64,000 bases of DNA, from contig JANQRA010000002.1 in the NCBI GenBank assembly GCA_028284765.1, positions 1 through 64,000 of the forward strand, given 5' to 3'. The translations under genes were made by a program, and so were the position numbers. Shown in pieces: positions 42,602 through 48,754 of this stretch. Every line of letters starts with the position of its first letter. Position 1 is the first letter of the stretch. Below the pieces are notes generated by a model. The model had not been told where the DNA came from. It was given only the letters and a program-made list of their open reading frames with translations, and did no database searches. The DNA comes from Acidimicrobiia bacterium. Lineage in GTDB: Bacteria; Actinomycetota; Acidimicrobiia; Spongiisociales; ZC4RG35.

Positions 42602-42641
42602 CAAAGAGAAAACCCCCTGCTTCCAGGGGGTTTTCTCTTTG
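42602..42641. terminator. Strong intrinsic terminator hairpin (copy 1)
   Basis: A perfect 16-bp stem (CAAAGAGAAAACCCCC with its complement) encloses the loop TGCTTCCA. A- and T-rich arms allow it to act in both directions: for the small membrane protein on the plus strand and for the tRNA remnant on the minus strand. A near copy occurs at 43252-43279. Confidence 0.85.
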
Positions 42642-42683
42642 TGGGCCTGCAGGACTTGAACCTACGACCTCTTGCGTGTCGAG
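42642..42683 (-). pseudogene. 3' remnant of tRNA-Val(GAC)
   Basis: A 38-base stretch (42646-42683) is identical to bases 43290-43327 of the intact tRNA-Val(GAC): the T arm, variable loop and part of the anticodon arm. The 5' half is missing and replaced by unrelated sequence. With the duplicated terminator it marks the left boundary of a small inserted or duplicated unit. Confidence 0.8.
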
Positions 42684-42735
42684 GAAAAGGAAGGGGGTGC
42701 AACGTCGATAGCTCGTACTGCCACCTCCTCAACCA

Positions 42736-43197
42736 TCAACTATTCGCAGGGTGCAGCTCGAAACACGACCTCCAGGAGCAAATGCCGTATCCGCCGTTCG
42801 TGACCTTGGTCGGCAACGACACCACACCACCAAGGTTGACTGATAGCTCGCAGAACTCCTTTGGCGAATCATCCCAAGTATCGCCCGGATAGTCGTCATG
42901 CCCAACCGCAAACCACAGCGGACCGACGATGCGATAGAGGCCAAGGCAGGACCCGACGTCCACACGAGCAGAGGGCGGGTCAGCTGCGTCCATGTCGACG
43001 ACGACAGGAGCACCTACAACAACTCTGATAGCTGAGTTGAATCGGTTGCCGTTGTACGCCGCAGCGCTTGCGATCAGCACGAATCCAAGCGATGCGAGGA
43101 GGACTGGCCCAACCAAACCTCTCCGCCGAGTGCCAGCAACGAGAGCTGCGACCAGGGCCAAGCCTCCCAATAGCCACCCCATATACGTCCCAAACAA
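42736..43197 (-). CDS. Hypothetical membrane protein inside the tRNA-Val unit
   Basis: A 153-residue protein starting MFGTYMGWLLGGLALVAAL, with two hydrophobic helices (about 5-21 and 30-48). An extracytoplasmic domain of about 100 residues contains four Cys (VGSCLGLYRIVG, FCELSV, GICSWRSCFEL). It is the only gene between the tRNA-Val remnant and the intact tRNA-Val. I do not recognise the family. Confidence 0.6.
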   Translation of the reverse strand: MFGTYMGWLLGGLALVAALVAGTRRRGLVGPVLLASLGFVLIASAAAYNGNRFNSAIRVVVGAPVVVDMDAADPPSARVDVGSCLGLYRIVGPLWFAVGHDDYPGDTWDDSPKEFCELSVNLGGVVSLPTKVTNGGYGICSWRSCFELHPANS

Positions 43198-43251
43198 CTG
43201 CCAACTCAGTTTGCGAACGCCTTTCCTCGGGGGATTCTCAACCGTTCCTAC

Positions 43252-43279
43252 GAGAAAACCCCCTGCTTCCAGGGGGTTT
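43252..43279. terminator. Terminator hairpin downstream of tRNA-Val(GAC) (copy 2)
   Basis: GAGAAAACCCCC-TGCTTCCA-GGGGGTTT, identical to the core of the hairpin at 42606-42633. It lies just downstream of the intact tRNA-Val on the minus strand and probably ends its transcript. Confidence 0.8.
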
Positions 43280-43281
43280 CT

Positions 43282-43358
43282 TGGTGGGCCCTGCAGGACT
43301 TGAACCTACGACCTCTTGCGTGTCGAGCAAGCGCTCTACCAGGCTGAGCTAAGAGCCC
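43282..43358 (-). tRNA. tRNA-Val(GAC)
   Basis: On the minus strand the acceptor GGGCTCT pairs with AGGGCCC, and the anticodon stem CTTGC/GCAAG encloses loop TCGACAC, giving anticodon GAC. Discriminator A and an encoded CCA end (43282-43284) are present. Its 3' half is duplicated at 42646-42683. Confidence 0.93.
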
Positions 43359-43900: not shown

Positions 43901-43953
43901 TTTGTTTGGAGGCGACGACCGGAATCGAACCGGTGTAACGGGTTTTGCAGACC
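43901..43953 (-). repeat. Left attachment-site repeat (53 bp), tRNA-Cys 3' remnant
   Basis: Perfect 53-base direct copy of 48675-48727. It comprises the encoded CCA end, T arm and anticodon-arm half of tRNA-Cys, but the 5' half does not follow. It is the distal boundary of the 4.8 kb island, as expected when an integrase recombines within a tRNA anticodon loop. Confidence 0.88.
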
Positions 43954-44108
43954 GAACCGCGCCGCGGTCCGAAGTCGACCGGCGTAACGAAACGCAACGA
44001 CATGATCAACTGCCATCGTGCAGAATCACTCGAATCACAGTTGCGGTCAGATTCGGAGCATTACGTCACATTTCGTCCTCATGCGGACCAGATGCAGACC
44101 AGCTGCAA
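43954..44108. other. Non-coding left end of the island
   Basis: About 155 bases between the left tRNA repeat and the stop of the receiver-kinase gene. No gene is supported. It carries ATGCGGACCAGATGCAGACC, similar to the sequence at the 3' end of the integrase remnant on the other side of the island. Confidence 0.4.
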
Positions 44109-45521
44109 TCAGGCGTTCAGAATCGAAGCTGCGGCCCCAGCGATCGCCAGGGCGAGCGCCTTGTCAGTGTCTGGATACTTCAACTGACGGACAGCGTGCG
44201 CGTAGACCATCGCTGCTATCTCAGTTTCAGAACACCACTCGGTGGCCCAGGCGCGGCACTCCCTCACGAACCTTGGAACGGGGCATCCATGGGTATATGC
44301 GTCCAGATCGAACCACTGGCGTCCTTCTTCAACCGATGGCCACTCTTCCAAGTCGGGATGCTCCTCGTGCAGAAGGAGACTCAACTCAAGCGTTATCGGA
44401 TCGAGGACCACTGGTGCCAGCCCAACATCCCCATAGTCGATCACCACGGGACTCCCGTCTTCCGCTATGAGGACATTCTTGCCGTGAAGGTCGCAGTGTT
44501 GAACGGCTTGTGGCATCTCGATAGAAAGCGCCTCGACCTCGCGCCACTTGATCTCATCTAGCTCCGAGGTGAACGGATCAAGCTTCGATTCATCAACACG
44601 CGACGATCTCAACTCGCCAACTGTGATTGGCACTCTCGTCGCGGCACGCTGCCAGACGGCGAAAGCGTCTCTGAGATGCTCCACGACGAGCGCAGCTTCT
44701 TCATCAGATTCCTTGATGACATCGAAGAGGTCCGAACCGCTCGATGCAAGTCGATAAAACACGGCTCCGAAGCGGCCCGCACCCGCAAGAACCTGACCCG
44801 TTCGATGGGCCAGAGCACCGATGTCAAGCACCGGCGCAACATGGAGGTCATAACGAGACATCTCATCCTCGACGTCGGCAACCAAGGCCACTTTCGCCAC
44901 CACCAAACCCACAACGTTCGAGGAAGGATCGAGCACCTCGACCTGGACTACTTTCGCCCCCGACAACCCTCCGAGACGGGATAGTCGGAGCCGGGATCCG
45001 CCGAGCTGCCTCCCGTAGATACGAAGTGGCCTTGCCTCGTACTCCCCCATGGACAGGTCCTCGACGCCTTCGAGCTCGACATCGTTCAGGCCGTTTATTC
45101 CGTCGGCCAGCGAGATGGCGCGGTTGATGAAATCCGGTTGGTCCTTCTTGTCGAAGTGGTCCACTAAGACCCATTGTTCACCGGTGCCAAAGAGGTCGGC
45201 AGAGAGGCCTGTACTAAGGCGATTCCCGATGTTTTGAAGATTGGCGTACCCGCTGAAGAAGATCGAAGGCACCCCTGGCCATAGTGATCTGGCCTGGTCG
45301 TGAACGCGAATCCCATGATTCTCGTCGACTTCCAAGCTGCCACGACGAGTAGGGATTCTGAGGTCACACACGATCAAATCGAAATCCTCACGATCACTGA
45401 TGATGTCGAGCGCTTCTTCAAGTCCATGGGCCACAACGACGTCGGCTCCACAGCCGCGTGCCAACAGCCCCGTTAACTCCTCAACGGTCCTCTCCTCGTC
45501 TTCAATCAGGAGGATTCGCAT
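44109..45521 (-). CDS. Response-regulator receiver fused to an APH-fold kinase
   Basis: A 470-residue two-domain protein. Residues 1-130 form a receiver: acidic pair E7-D8-E9 (LLIEDEE), phospho-acceptor D53 (LIVCDLRIP), switch Ser S90 (IFFSGYAN) and conserved Lys at 124-125 (HFDKKD). Residues 165-470 form a kinase of the APH/protein-kinase-like fold: G-loop RLGGLSGAKVVQV, Lys in GLVVAKVAL (K209), catalytic loop VQHCDLHGKNVLI with D343 and N348, and metal Asp D361 in VVIDYGD. All catalytic residues are present. It should be controlled by phosphorylation from the histidine kinase, with which it overlaps by 20 bases. The substrate is unknown; the kinase half may relate to domains described in NTP-dependent conflict systems, which I cannot confirm here. 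Confidence 0.82.
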   Translation of the reverse strand: MRILLIEDEERTVEELTGLLARGCGADVVVAHGLEEALDIISDREDFDLIVCDLRIPTRRGSLEVDENHGIRVHDQARSLWPGVPSIFFSGYANLQNIGNRLSTGLSADLFGTGEQWVLVDHFDKKDQPDFINRAISLADGINGLNDVELEGVEDLSMGEYEARPLRIYGRQLGGSRLRLSRLGGLSGAKVVQVEVLDPSSNVVGLVVAKVALVADVEDEMSRYDLHVAPVLDIGALAHRTGQVLAGAGRFGAVFYRLASSGSDLFDVIKESDEEAALVVEHLRDAFAVWQRAATRVPITVGELRSSRVDESKLDPFTSELDEIKWREVEALSIEMPQAVQHCDLHGKNVLIAEDGSPVVIDYGDVGLAPVVLDPITLELSLLLHEEHPDLEEWPSVEEGRQWFDLDAYTHGCPVPRFVRECRAWATEWCSETEIAAMVYAHAVRQLKYPDTDKALALAIAGAAASILNA

Positions 45522-46437
45522 CAGACACGATTCCTGCCCAGCGCATCTCGCTAACTACCCCACCGCCGGCTCGTGGAGTGTGGCTAATGCGACCATTCAT
45601 GCTTTGGAGTGCAAGCTTGGCAACTGTGAGTCCGACGCCAAGGTGGGTACTTTTGTCCTTAGTTGTCAGTCCGGCTTCGCCCATTCTCGAGCTTCCAGAT
45701 GGCAGTCCTACACCGCGGTCGAATATTGCGACCCAGCTATCAACATCCGTCACACCCCAATTCACGACTACCGGTTCCCCAGATCCCCCGACATCAGGAT
45801 CGCTCGCTTCGAGAGCGTTTCGCAAGATGTTCAGCAAAGCCATTCGAATGAGGTTCGGGTCACCGGATGACAGGACGGGATCATCCCGTGCCGTAACGAC
45901 CTTTATCGCAGCCGCGTCTCGCTGCTCACGTTCGACCTGCACGACCTTGCGAACTTCGAATACAACATCACTCAGATTGAAGTCGGTCACGTTCGGAGCA
46001 GTCGATGCTTGATACAGGCTGCGGACTCCCTCGAGTAGACCTTGCAAATCACCAATTGCTTGCATCGTTAATGGCATAGAATCGACACGGAGTTCGTCTT
46101 GGGCGGCTTGGAGGAGCGACCCCACAATTGGAGACAGCTCATGGCTGAATACAGCGGTCAACTCCTGAGTGGTTTGTACCTTCACGTCTTGGGCGAGTTG
46201 AGCTGGATCCTCAACCACCGGCACTTCAGTGTTCACCTCAAGGGAGATTTCTGACATGTCTCGAGAGGCAATCTGCGAGAGCGCCTGCCGAACCCAACCG
46301 TCGGATTCTTTATCCAGGACGGCCTGTATCTGAGCGAAGTCCTGATCACTCGCCGTCTTCTGCAAGACGCGCGCCGCCCTCAAGCGGTCTATAGCATTCG
46401 TCGACTTCAGCAGCTCCAACGCCTCTGGCTTATCCAC
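45502..46437 (-). CDS. Soluble histidine kinase with HEAT-like N-terminus
   Basis: A 311-residue cytosolic kinase with no membrane segment. Residues 1-60 resemble one to two HEAT-type helical repeats (AIDRLRAARVLQ, GWVRQALSQIAS). The dimerisation helix carries the phospho-acceptor H99 in AVFSHELSPIVGSLL. The ATPase domain has N-box LLNILRNALEAS (N203/N207), G1 FDRGVGLP (D240) and G2 THLGVGLTVAKL. The adjacent receiver-kinase is the obvious partner. It starts 3 bases after the ATPase stop, and all three genes must be co-expressed. What it senses is unknown; the HEAT-like part could contact the ATPase. Confidence 0.82.
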   Translation of the reverse strand: MDKPEALELLKSTNAIDRLRAARVLQKTASDQDFAQIQAVLDKESDGWVRQALSQIASRDMSEISLEVNTEVPVVEDPAQLAQDVKVQTTQELTAVFSHELSPIVGSLLQAAQDELRVDSMPLTMQAIGDLQGLLEGVRSLYQASTAPNVTDFNLSDVVFEVRKVVQVEREQRDAAAIKVVTARDDPVLSSGDPNLIRMALLNILRNALEASDPDVGGSGEPVVVNWGVTDVDSWVAIFDRGVGLPSGSSRMGEAGLTTKDKSTHLGVGLTVAKLALQSMNGRISHTPRAGGGVVSEMRWAGIVSDANPPD

Positions 46438-46440
46438 TCA

Positions 46441-48285
46441 CTAGCCAGACTCTCGTGATCGATAGAACTCCGCTCGCCGCTCGAATGCCTCTTTCCCGCC
46501 TTCCATAACAGTGGTGATTGCAGTCACGACTTCCGGGTCGTCCAATCCACCCCGATGATCGACCCACCCTCTCTTTCCATTGGACGCCAGAGCTACGACT
46601 GCGTCTGCTTCGCCCAGTACAGGGATATTCGCGTTGTGAGATGCCAGGATCAACTGGTCACCTTCTTCGCGCTGAGTGAGCGCACGGACCAGGGTGCCTG
46701 CGATGAACGAATTGTCTATCTGATCCTCCGGCTGATCCACCAGGAGGATGTCTCCGTGCCTGGCCAGAAGGAGTGGCAGCACAATGGTGCATCGTTGCCC
46801 AATCGAAGCTTCTTGGCTCTCCTTGTATTCAGCTCCATCCAAGAGCTTCAGGGTGATTCCGTCTTCTATGGGGGACGCGATGATGCTCGACAAGTCAGAG
46901 TCGGCCAAGGCTTGGATAATCGACTCGGCCACCCTGTCGCTAAGATTGCAGGCATCTACAAGGGCCTGGGCGTCTCGTGATTCGACGGCCTTGACCAATT
47001 CGAGCGGGGACATATTCATGGCCAAAGTCGGAGCATGTCGGCTGTAGTGCAGTCCGCTTCCTCGCAGTCCTGAGATGATGGTTTCAGCGTAAGACCGCGT
47101 TTCCATAGACCGTGAAGCCTCAACAACGATATTCGGAGACAACTCCTGCGTTAGTGCATCCGCAACCTGATTGCGAGATTCGAATCGGAGTTGTCGGAAG
47201 GAGTCCAACTCTCTGTACAAGGCATCACGTTGCTCGATTCGCGAATCCGCTCTTTCCTCAACCTCTTGCAGCCGTTGACGAAGAGCCTCGACTTGGCCGG
47301 CCCGCTCAGTAAGGGCCTCAACTCGCCGCGTTACTTCCCCGACCCCCCGCTCCACTTGATCGAGCCTTTGCCTTAGCTGACGCCATATCTCATCGACCTC
47401 CACCGATCGAGATACGTCGTTTTCCAACAGAACGTTGATCTCACCGACAGCGCCCTGAACAACATTTCGAATGCGGGCGATCGAATCGATTGACTCCTGC
47501 ACGGCTGCACGGATTGACTGCAACGTGTCGACATCGCCAGCCGCCTCTGGCCATGAATCGGCGAGGACGGATCTGTTGGCGATGCTCACCAACTCCGTGT
47601 CGAGACCTTCTAGCTCGGCGATGCTTCGCTCGAGCACACTTCTTCGGACCTTTAGCTGGGCTGATTCCCGCTGAAGTTGGTCCAATTGAGATCGATCTTC
47701 GGAACTCGCCTCAACCGAGGCGAGCGCTGCTTCCTCCTCCTCCCTGGCAGCCACTAACTCCTCGGAGACACCCTGCGACTCAGCAATCTGACTCTCCATC
47801 TGATCTAGGTCTTTAAGGAGGTCTCGAATCTCTGATGTCATCGACCGGATCTGTCTCGCAACTCGCTCAGACTCAGCCCGCTCTCGTGTCAATGTGGGAG
47901 TGAGCCTGTCGACTAGGTGCAGTCTGCCGCTGGGCTGTGCGCCCACCGCTTCAATCTCTCCTTGGCCGAGAATGGTGACCCTCGGCACCTCAGCGGTGGA
48001 TCGTGGATCTTCGTCCGAAGCCGAACGAACGACCACCACAGTCTGTTCGCCGTCGGACAACGTAACCGTCACCTGGCCACCCCGAAGGACAGAAAGAGCC
48101 TGCTGATGGCCGCGCTCGCGGGCCTCGTCAGTAAAGGCAGGGGCGGCTAGACAGAATCGTATCAATTCGATGAGAGATGTCTTACCCGACCCACGGGCAC
48201 CGATGATGACGTTCAATCCGGGATCGAATCGAAGATCCAGGCCATCGAGAAAGCCCTCATCGACTTGAACTCGCTCAATGTGCAA
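46441..48285 (-). CDS. SMC/RecF-like coiled-coil ATPase related to TrlF-type ATPases
   Basis: A 614-residue ATPase. Walker A is IIGARGSGKTSLIE (K35), and a Q-loop-like ILGQGEIEAVG is near 105-115. A coiled coil of roughly residues 135-370 follows. The C-terminal half holds signature EASIGQRCTIVLPLLL (494-498 core), Walker B GDILLVDQPEDQIDN and H-loop SHNANIPVLG (H550). The QPEDQIDN/HNANIPV combination is that of ATPases such as the TrlF C-terminal part, here without a PHP nuclease domain. It starts at TTG with GGAGGAGAG upstream and leads the operon. It may recognise DNA ends or structures and signal to the kinase pair. Confidence 0.85.
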   Translation of the reverse strand: MHIERVQVDEGFLDGLDLRFDPGLNVIIGARGSGKTSLIELIRFCLAAPAFTDEARERGHQQALSVLRGGQVTVTLSDGEQTVVVVRSASDEDPRSTAEVPRVTILGQGEIEAVGAQPSGRLHLVDRLTPTLTRERAESERVARQIRSMTSEIRDLLKDLDQMESQIAESQGVSEELVAAREEEEAALASVEASSEDRSQLDQLQRESAQLKVRRSVLERSIAELEGLDTELVSIANRSVLADSWPEAAGDVDTLQSIRAAVQESIDSIARIRNVVQGAVGEINVLLENDVSRSVEVDEIWRQLRQRLDQVERGVGEVTRRVEALTERAGQVEALRQRLQEVEERADSRIEQRDALYRELDSFRQLRFESRNQVADALTQELSPNIVVEASRSMETRSYAETIISGLRGSGLHYSRHAPTLAMNMSPLELVKAVESRDAQALVDACNLSDRVAESIIQALADSDLSSIIASPIEDGITLKLLDGAEYKESQEASIGQRCTIVLPLLLARHGDILLVDQPEDQIDNSFIAGTLVRALTQREEGDQLILASHNANIPVLGEADAVVALASNGKRGWVDHRGGLDDPEVVTAITTVMEGGKEAFERRAEFYRSRESG

Positions 48286-48399
48286 CGGTCTCTCCTCCTG
48301 ACATTTGTCTCAGTATGCCTTCTTCGAATGATCGCGCAGGAATCGCTGGCCAACGAACGCGATCGAGCAGCCGACCGCTCACACAGAACAAATGGCGGC

Positions 48400-48645
48400 A
48401 AAAACTCGGGGAGGCATCCAGCGGGCTGCTGGGTCTCGCATCTCGATTGGGCGCGCACCGATTGCGAGCTCGTGAAACGTCAGCTCGGACACTCGTCGAT
48501 CCAAGTCACCTACGACCTGTACGGACACCTGTTCCCAGACGAATCGGACCGGCTCGCCGACGCCCTCGACGCGGTGTGGACCGGTTCTGATGCGGACCAA
48601 ATGCGGACCAAGCCGCCCGCGGGCATCGTCGCTCTCGGATCTTGA
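48400..48645 (+). pseudogene. C-terminal remnant of a tyrosine recombinase (integrase)
   Basis: This part of the open frame encodes RHPAGCW (catalytic Arg-His box), LVKRQLGHSSIQVTYDLYGH (LGH box and nucleophile Tyr), and LFPDESDRLADALDAV, typical of phage-type integrases. The spacing between the RH box and LGH box is about three residues longer than normal, and the N-terminal DNA-binding half is missing. The upstream part of the frame runs antisense to the ATPase start. It ends 30 bases before the right attachment repeat, where the integrase of such an island is expected. Confidence 0.8.
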
Positions 48646-48674
48646 GGCGGCGCAAACCCCCATTGACTTGGGAG

Positions 48675-48727
48675 TTTGTTTGGAGGCGACGACCGGAATC
48701 GAACCGGTGTAACGGGTTTTGCAGACC
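48675..48727 (-). repeat. Right attachment-site repeat (53 bp) within tRNA-Cys
   Basis: Perfect copy of 43901-43953. Its left end lies just beyond the CCA end of the tRNA, and its right end falls in the anticodon stem. It is part of the intact tRNA-Cys gene. Confidence 0.88.
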
Positions 48728-48754
48728 CGCGCCTAACCACTCGGCCACGTCGCC
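48681..48754 (-). tRNA. tRNA-Cys(GCA)
   Basis: On the minus strand GGCGACG pairs with CGTCGCC, the discriminator is T, and CCA is encoded (48681-48683). The anticodon stem CGGGT/ACCCG encloses CTGCAAA, giving anticodon GCA. It is the integration target of the island. Confidence 0.94.

Follow-up and report, generated by a model that had tools for sequence, protein, structure and literature searches.

The question raised by the tRNA-Cys (gca) site of the 64-kb window (the whole stretch of DNA that was analysed) is whether the three genes inserted there, encoding an SMC-like ATPase, a soluble histidine kinase (HK) and a receiver-kinase (RRK), form one signalling system, and what such a system would serve. 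The site hosts a 4.8-kb island (positions 43901-48727) bounded by a perfect 53-bp direct repeat. The right attachment-site copy (48675-48727, minus strand) lies inside the intact tRNA-Cys gene that formed the integration target (48681-48754, minus strand, identified with ARAGORN), and the left copy (43901-43953, minus strand) is a 100% identical duplicate of the 3' part of this gene. An imperfect 21-bp repeat, TGGTCYGCATNTGGTCCGCAT, is located on the same strand near both island ends, with a left copy TGGTCTGCATCTGGTCCGCAT (44081-44101, minus strand) and a right copy TGGTCCGCATTTGGTCCGCAT (48590-48610, minus strand). These were the only two matches in the window at up to two mismatches (0.00 expected by chance), and the paired repeats would fit arm-type integrase sites. 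A tyrosine integrase is represented by a C-terminal remnant with a LVKRQLGHSSIQVTYDLYGHLF motif (48427-48645, plus strand), which sits in an open reading frame spanning 48265-48645 (plus strand) and gave a weak match to the XerS C-terminus (E 0.0024, residues 63-99). Because the C-terminal remnant is all that survives of the integrase, the island is probably no longer self-mobile. Its G+C content is 0.56-0.58, compared with about 0.60 across most of the window. The genes are read from the minus strand in the order ATPase, HK and RRK, with a 3-nt gap between the first two and a 20-nt overlap between the last two, so that coordinates and repeat match bear out the island, its tRNA-Cys repeats, the integrase remnant and the tight operon of the original prediction. 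A scan for promoters and terminators gave no signal above chance, and the flanking 128-aa gene used to look for an empty site had no match in 34 relatives. Another, very small remnant of a tRNA insertion was seen at 42606-43358, where a 44-bp copy (95%) of the 3' part of tRNA-Val(gac) and a perfect 28-bp repeat were found, both repeat pairs being about 645 bp apart, with one 153-aa open reading frame (42736-43197, minus strand) between the repeats.

The first gene of the operon (46441-48285, minus strand, TTG start) encodes a 614-aa TrlF/Ppl-type SMC-like ATPase without a PHP domain, the Pfam search giving no PHP match. The protein was matched by the NCBIfam models TrlF (E 3.8e-75, model positions 296-944 only) and Ppl (E 1.3e-29), both matches lying below the curated cut-offs and covering the ATPase part only, and its alignment to two longer TrlF proteins starts at their residues 197 and 251. 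Its AlphaFold2 model (pLDDT 88.5) consists of an ABC head and a short coiled coil, with JetC, cohesin, Rad50, RecN and LmuB as the best Foldseek matches. The TrlF and Foldseek matches both back the earlier assignment of the protein as TrlF/SMC-like. The Walker A, Q-loop, signature, Walker B and H-loop motifs are conserved in practically all of 46 sequences, with K35 (correctly placed as an active-site residue in the original prediction), Q108, SxGQRC, DQPED and H550 essentially invariant; a conserved CxxC, and with it a zinc hook, is absent from these ATPases. The residue following the Walker-B Asp is Gln in 46/46 sequences, as it is in TrlF. The same Glu-to-Gln change in LmuB has been taken as a sign of slow hydrolysis (PMC10586767), and by analogy the invariant Gln suggests that the ATPase may hydrolyse ATP slowly and act like a switch.

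The second gene (45502-46437, minus strand) encodes a soluble HK of 311 aa with a HATPase_c domain, the phospho-site H99 and N-terminal HEAT-like repeats. In a profile search its first 60 residues matched alphaRep (HEAT-like artificial repeat) proteins (e.g. E 2.3e-13), and a weak HEAT_2 match was obtained for the N-terminus, which none of the TPR models matched. No membrane segment was seen in the sequence, in keeping with the membrane-free HEAT kinase foreseen at the outset. H99, whose position had been named correctly, and the N-box Asn N207 are each retained in 48/48 sequences.

The third gene (44109-45521, minus strand) encodes the 470-aa RRK, a receiver (residues ~1-125; Pfam Response_reg) followed by an APH-fold/TCAD9 kinase (residues ~150-470; Pfam TCAD9 and APH), with the TCAD9 match above the Pfam cut-off. 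In the AlphaFold2 model (pLDDT 94, pTM 0.90) the receiver (VIA-align Z 16) is accompanied by a full kinase fold, which reached VIA-align Z 13-15 to the lanthipeptide kinase LxmK, PsiK, choline kinases and APH. The phospho-Asp D53, K125, H342 and D344 (HxD motif), N349 and D362 are conserved, and K210 is near-invariant. The proposal of a receiver fused to an intact APH-fold kinase is upheld by the Pfam matches, the model and these residues; D53 had been placed correctly, and the catalytic Asp of the kinase had to be corrected from D343 to D344 (H342-x-D344). D53 is retained in 49/51 RRKs, and the two with a replacement, L025 (Gly) and L050 (Ser, with D8 also changed to Phe), both lack HK and ATPase genes. 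Loss of the phosphoacceptor is therefore paired with loss of the relay partners, as a His-Asp model predicts, in an association that rests on n=2 and could have arisen by chance. The dead-receiver RRK of L050 follows genes for a C5 methylase, an SNF2 helicase, a HATPase_c_3 protein and an HNH protein (L050:3470-11182), a setting that possibly resembles a restriction-type island to which the kinase was added as an effector. A further RRK of 409 aa (L054:10001-11395) lacks its C-terminal end and stops about 90 bp short of a tRNA-Gly gene, perhaps cut at an island boundary. In a Bryobacterales MAG (L063:5412-10954), a 723-aa receiver-TCAD9 protein overlaps by 4 nt with a 1124-aa protein that gave no Pfam hit, which is possibly another type of sensor for the same receiver-TCAD9 effector.

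The gene order ATPase-HK-RRK, whose lack elsewhere had been set beforehand as the refuting outcome, recurs with all three genes full-length in at least 44 fetched loci outside the window (a single Phytobacter prophage accounts for two of them), gathered from plasmids, a scan of one genome per species and IMG/VR; non-co-occurrence is thereby rejected. The loci come from Actinomycetota, Chloroflexota, Alpha-, Beta- and Gammaproteobacteria, plasmids and two IMG/VR prophage contigs, and Pantoea has the same order in addition to these 44. Among 299 Sphingomonadaceae genomes, a high-scoring ATPase was found in seven (one of the genes being interrupted by a stop), and HK and RRK follow it in 7/7, so that the module is sporadic yet obligate as three genes in this family. 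Full-length RRK homologues with 26-36% identity were found on plasmids of Rhizobium, Rhodococcus, Phaeobacter, Shinella, Caballeronia, Vibrio, Leclercia, Klebsiella, Pantoea and Piscirickettsia. In the plasmid neighbourhoods that were read, ATPase and HK genes lie upstream of the RRK gene in the same order, with the exception of Piscirickettsia, in which the module is degraded. Every full-length ATPase match with at least 30% identity on plasmids stands in a record in which HK and RRK are also present; the full-length matches ranking next, with at most 24% identity, are TrlF proteins. L016 and other Piscirickettsia salmonis plasmids (36 records) carry degraded copies with ATPase fragments and truncated HK genes. 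No full-length RRK was found in 98 relatives of the same family and order, and in a phylum sample of 396 genomes it was found in one other genome, G274, whose ATPase is also of the module type. DNA searches with Phytobacter and Leclercia queries gave no match in 5,426 E. coli genomes, and no match was obtained in a collection of isolated phages.

The pairwise distances of the three proteins co-vary (Mantel r 0.950-0.956, p 0.001), and their trees have 33 shared splits, with one to two supported conflicts per pair. Host taxonomy is scrambled in the tree, Enterobacter and Leclercia copies grouping with Caballeronia and alphaproteobacterial ones, and across 46-51 sequences the catalytic residues show almost no variation. 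As judged from these comparisons, the three genes form an obligate, co-evolving and horizontally spread unit with intact and conserved active sites that is carried by elements. Chance adjacency of three unrelated genes is ruled out by the recurrent order, the co-varying distances and the 7/7 co-occurrence in Sphingomonadaceae. An order-wide housekeeping system is likewise ruled out, by the lack of a full-length RRK in the 98 relatives and its presence in a single other genome of the phylum sample.

For a comparison of genomic neighbourhoods, the seven nearest open reading frames at each of 20 loci (140 proteins) were set against 126 open reading frames from distant places on the same contigs (14 large ones being left out for size). 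Near the operon, six phage integrases and four resolvases were found among the 140 proteins, compared with none among the families listed for the 126 controls. At E 1e-15, 40 PADLOC families were matched near the operon and 22 in the controls, a modest excess that was counted by family and not by single protein; the near set includes type IIG restriction-modification, AriAB and DRT, and the control set consists mainly of methyltransferases. A PADLOC scan of ten large neighbours returned one weak candidate only. The neighbourhood is enriched in mobility more than in defence; of the expected company of defence genes, the modestly higher number of PADLOC families stands. Enrichment of tRNA genes near the relatives is not clear, with a tRNA gene in the fetched stretch at 6/33 loci, which is about chance by estimate. 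On a lambdoid prophage contig the operon lies between P-like and Q-like genes, and in the Phytobacter prophage near tail-fibre and UmuC-like genes. Sites between P-like and Q-like genes and near tail-fibre genes are typical cargo positions of prophages. The tRNA island, the carriage on plasmids and prophages and the adjoining integrases and resolvases all agree with the mobile setting that had been proposed.

A second group of operons was recovered from IMG/VR. Here, relatives of the ATPase (L103-L134, e.g. L117:10682-11752) are often followed by a longer HK (~372 aa) and by a receiver protein that lacks the kinase. In 20 aligned receiver proteins of this group, Response_reg was found in 20/20, and several gave weak to moderate winged-helix or HTH matches. 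By domain content, the ATPase-HK front end occurs with two outputs, the kinase and a putative receiver-winged-helix protein; as far as could be found, the latter operon is undescribed. The kinase-coupled ATPases form one clade with full support, so that the kinase output probably became fixed a single time. The order among kinase-coupled, winged-helix-coupled and TrlF ATPases is not settled by the ATPase tree.

Detocs is a defence system based on a His-Asp relay, with a TPR-repeat HK and a receiver that carries an enzymatic effector, an ATP-cleaving PNP in the best-described case, in place of a DNA-binding domain. The module shares with it the number of genes, the enzymatic effector on the receiver and, by prediction, the phosphotransfer, the His-Asp pair being encoded in one operon with intact phospho-sites (H99 48/48, D53 49/51). 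It differs from the three-gene Detocs system with its PNP effector (PMC11249213) in having an SMC-like ATPase as obligate first gene, HEAT-like instead of TPR repeats in the HK and an APH-fold kinase as effector. Along its entire length the ATPase shows homology to the ATPase portion of TrlF and Ppl, and it has the same DQPED Walker B; unlike these proteins, it lacks the PHP domain and is coupled to HK and RRK genes, whereas Ppl is a single-gene nuclease (PMC12904381). LmuB of Lamassu is a small SMC/Rad50-like ATPase that is thought to be a sensor of DNA structure (PMC10586767), and the module ATPase is like it in size (~600-650 aa), fold match and Walker-B Gln. The module has no LmuA, LmuC or zinc hook, and its output would pass through a phosphorelay; against Lamassu models, partial LmuB matches only were obtained (best 4e-14), with no LmuA or LmuC match among those listed for HK or RRK. 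NTP-dependent ternary conflict systems include active APH kinases and sporadic receiver domains as effectors, and no histidine kinases are reported among the vWA-associated effectors (PMC7159879). The TCAD9 domain is the sole part shared with these systems, MoxR, vWA and VMAP being absent from the Pfam hits of the three module proteins. With PADLOC 2.0.0, ATPase and RRK were matched only in part or weakly and HK not at all, and the NCBI annotation of homologues of all three proteins is generic. No published description of the composition was found in the literature searched, a scope that excluded the original Detocs paper and bioRxiv; together with the PADLOC models, this search sustains the earlier claim that it had not been described. 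The module is nearest to Detocs in its logic and to Ppl/TrlF and Lamassu in its sensor and is a member of none of them: it is akin to defensive two-component and SMC-sensor systems, and its composition appears to be new.

In our view the operon is a mobile, horizontally spread signalling module that is most likely directed against phages or other elements, its SMC-like sensor acting by prediction through a His-Asp relay on a kinase effector; we assign this reading a probability of roughly 60%. Sensing of foreign nucleic acid by the ATPase is suggested by analogy of fold and family (TrlF/Ppl, Rad50/SMC, Lamassu LmuB). Ppl becomes active when DNA 3' ends coincide with a depleted nucleotide pool (PMC12904381), and for Lamassu the presumed signal is DNA ends or secondary structures (PMC10586767); because of these triggers, a switch answering DNA ends or nucleotide signals is proposed. 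The ATPase would bind a DNA structure generated by the invader or sense a change in the nucleotide pool, and with slow hydrolysis it would work as a switch. It may then contact the HEAT-like repeats of the HK and elicit autophosphorylation at H99, from which the phosphoryl group would be passed to D53 of the RRK receiver. The phosphorylated receiver would release the fused APH-fold kinase, and phosphorylation of a cellular target, either a protein or a small molecule, would stop growth or phage production. A kinase effector of the HipA family is documented in phage defence (PMC13092281). For the module, an anti-phage output by growth arrest is suggested by mobility, prophage and plasmid carriage and the neighbouring genes. 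The originally predicted logic of ATPase, HK and receiver-kinase stands as far as the single operon, the intact active sites and the co-evolution go; the order of signalling, like the trigger, the contacts, the target and the defensive outcome, is put forward as the path these features would imply.

The same parts could instead belong to a mobile stress-response two-component system, in which the ATPase responds to damaged DNA or to nucleotide stress, the RRK tunes metabolism or translation and defence is incidental. The ATPase-HK pairs with receiver-winged-helix outputs in IMG/VR would fit such a general sensor of DNA state regulating genes, but the module is very sporadic (7/299 Sphingomonadaceae, one other genome of 396 in the phylum sample, no match in 5,426 E. 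coli), and transfer across classes and phyla with carriage on plasmids and prophages is the habit of conflict systems, so that we regard this explanation as unlikely, although it is the most serious competitor. Less probable still is a module that serves the elements themselves, by aiding the persistence of plasmids, prophages or islands, excluding competitors or timing transfer: the many plasmids and prophages and the adjoining integrases and resolvases speak for it, but the carriers range from tRNA islands through IncF, repABC and MOBF plasmids to lambdoid prophages and are unrelated to one another, which makes a role for one element unlikely, and the exclusion of competitors overlaps with defence. 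A role of the APH domain in resistance, as an inducible enzyme that modifies antibiotics, appears very improbable. APH(3')-Ia is the top Foldseek match of the RRK (TM ~0.55 by target length), yet VIA-align places the kinase lobes equally close to LxmK, PsiK and choline kinases, none of the resistance families reaches its cut-off, and fusion to a receiver under a DNA-type ATPase is unlike antibiotic sensing.

The anti-phage or anti-element reading may extend to a new class of immune signalling, in which a Rad50/SMC-type sensor of nucleic acid or the nucleotide pool feeds a His-Asp phosphorelay with a swappable output, a cell-arresting metabolite or protein kinase in this module and a winged-helix regulator in the second group; this extension is tentative, and we hold its chances to be slightly short of even. 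If true, the class would unite SMC-based sensing with two-component signalling within a single immune pathway. The lack of a DNA-level match in the E. coli genomes searched may explain the absence of the module from E. coli-centred screens. In the cases known to date, SMC-type DNA surveillance acts directly on nucleases and other effectors. If the module works as proposed, such surveillance would here be wired into a two-component phosphorelay of the classical kind, with a kinase as the executing effector, and the module's three soluble proteins with defined phospho-sites would offer a clean system for studying how cytosolic HKs read internal threats, as well as a route to the kinase target that controls growth.
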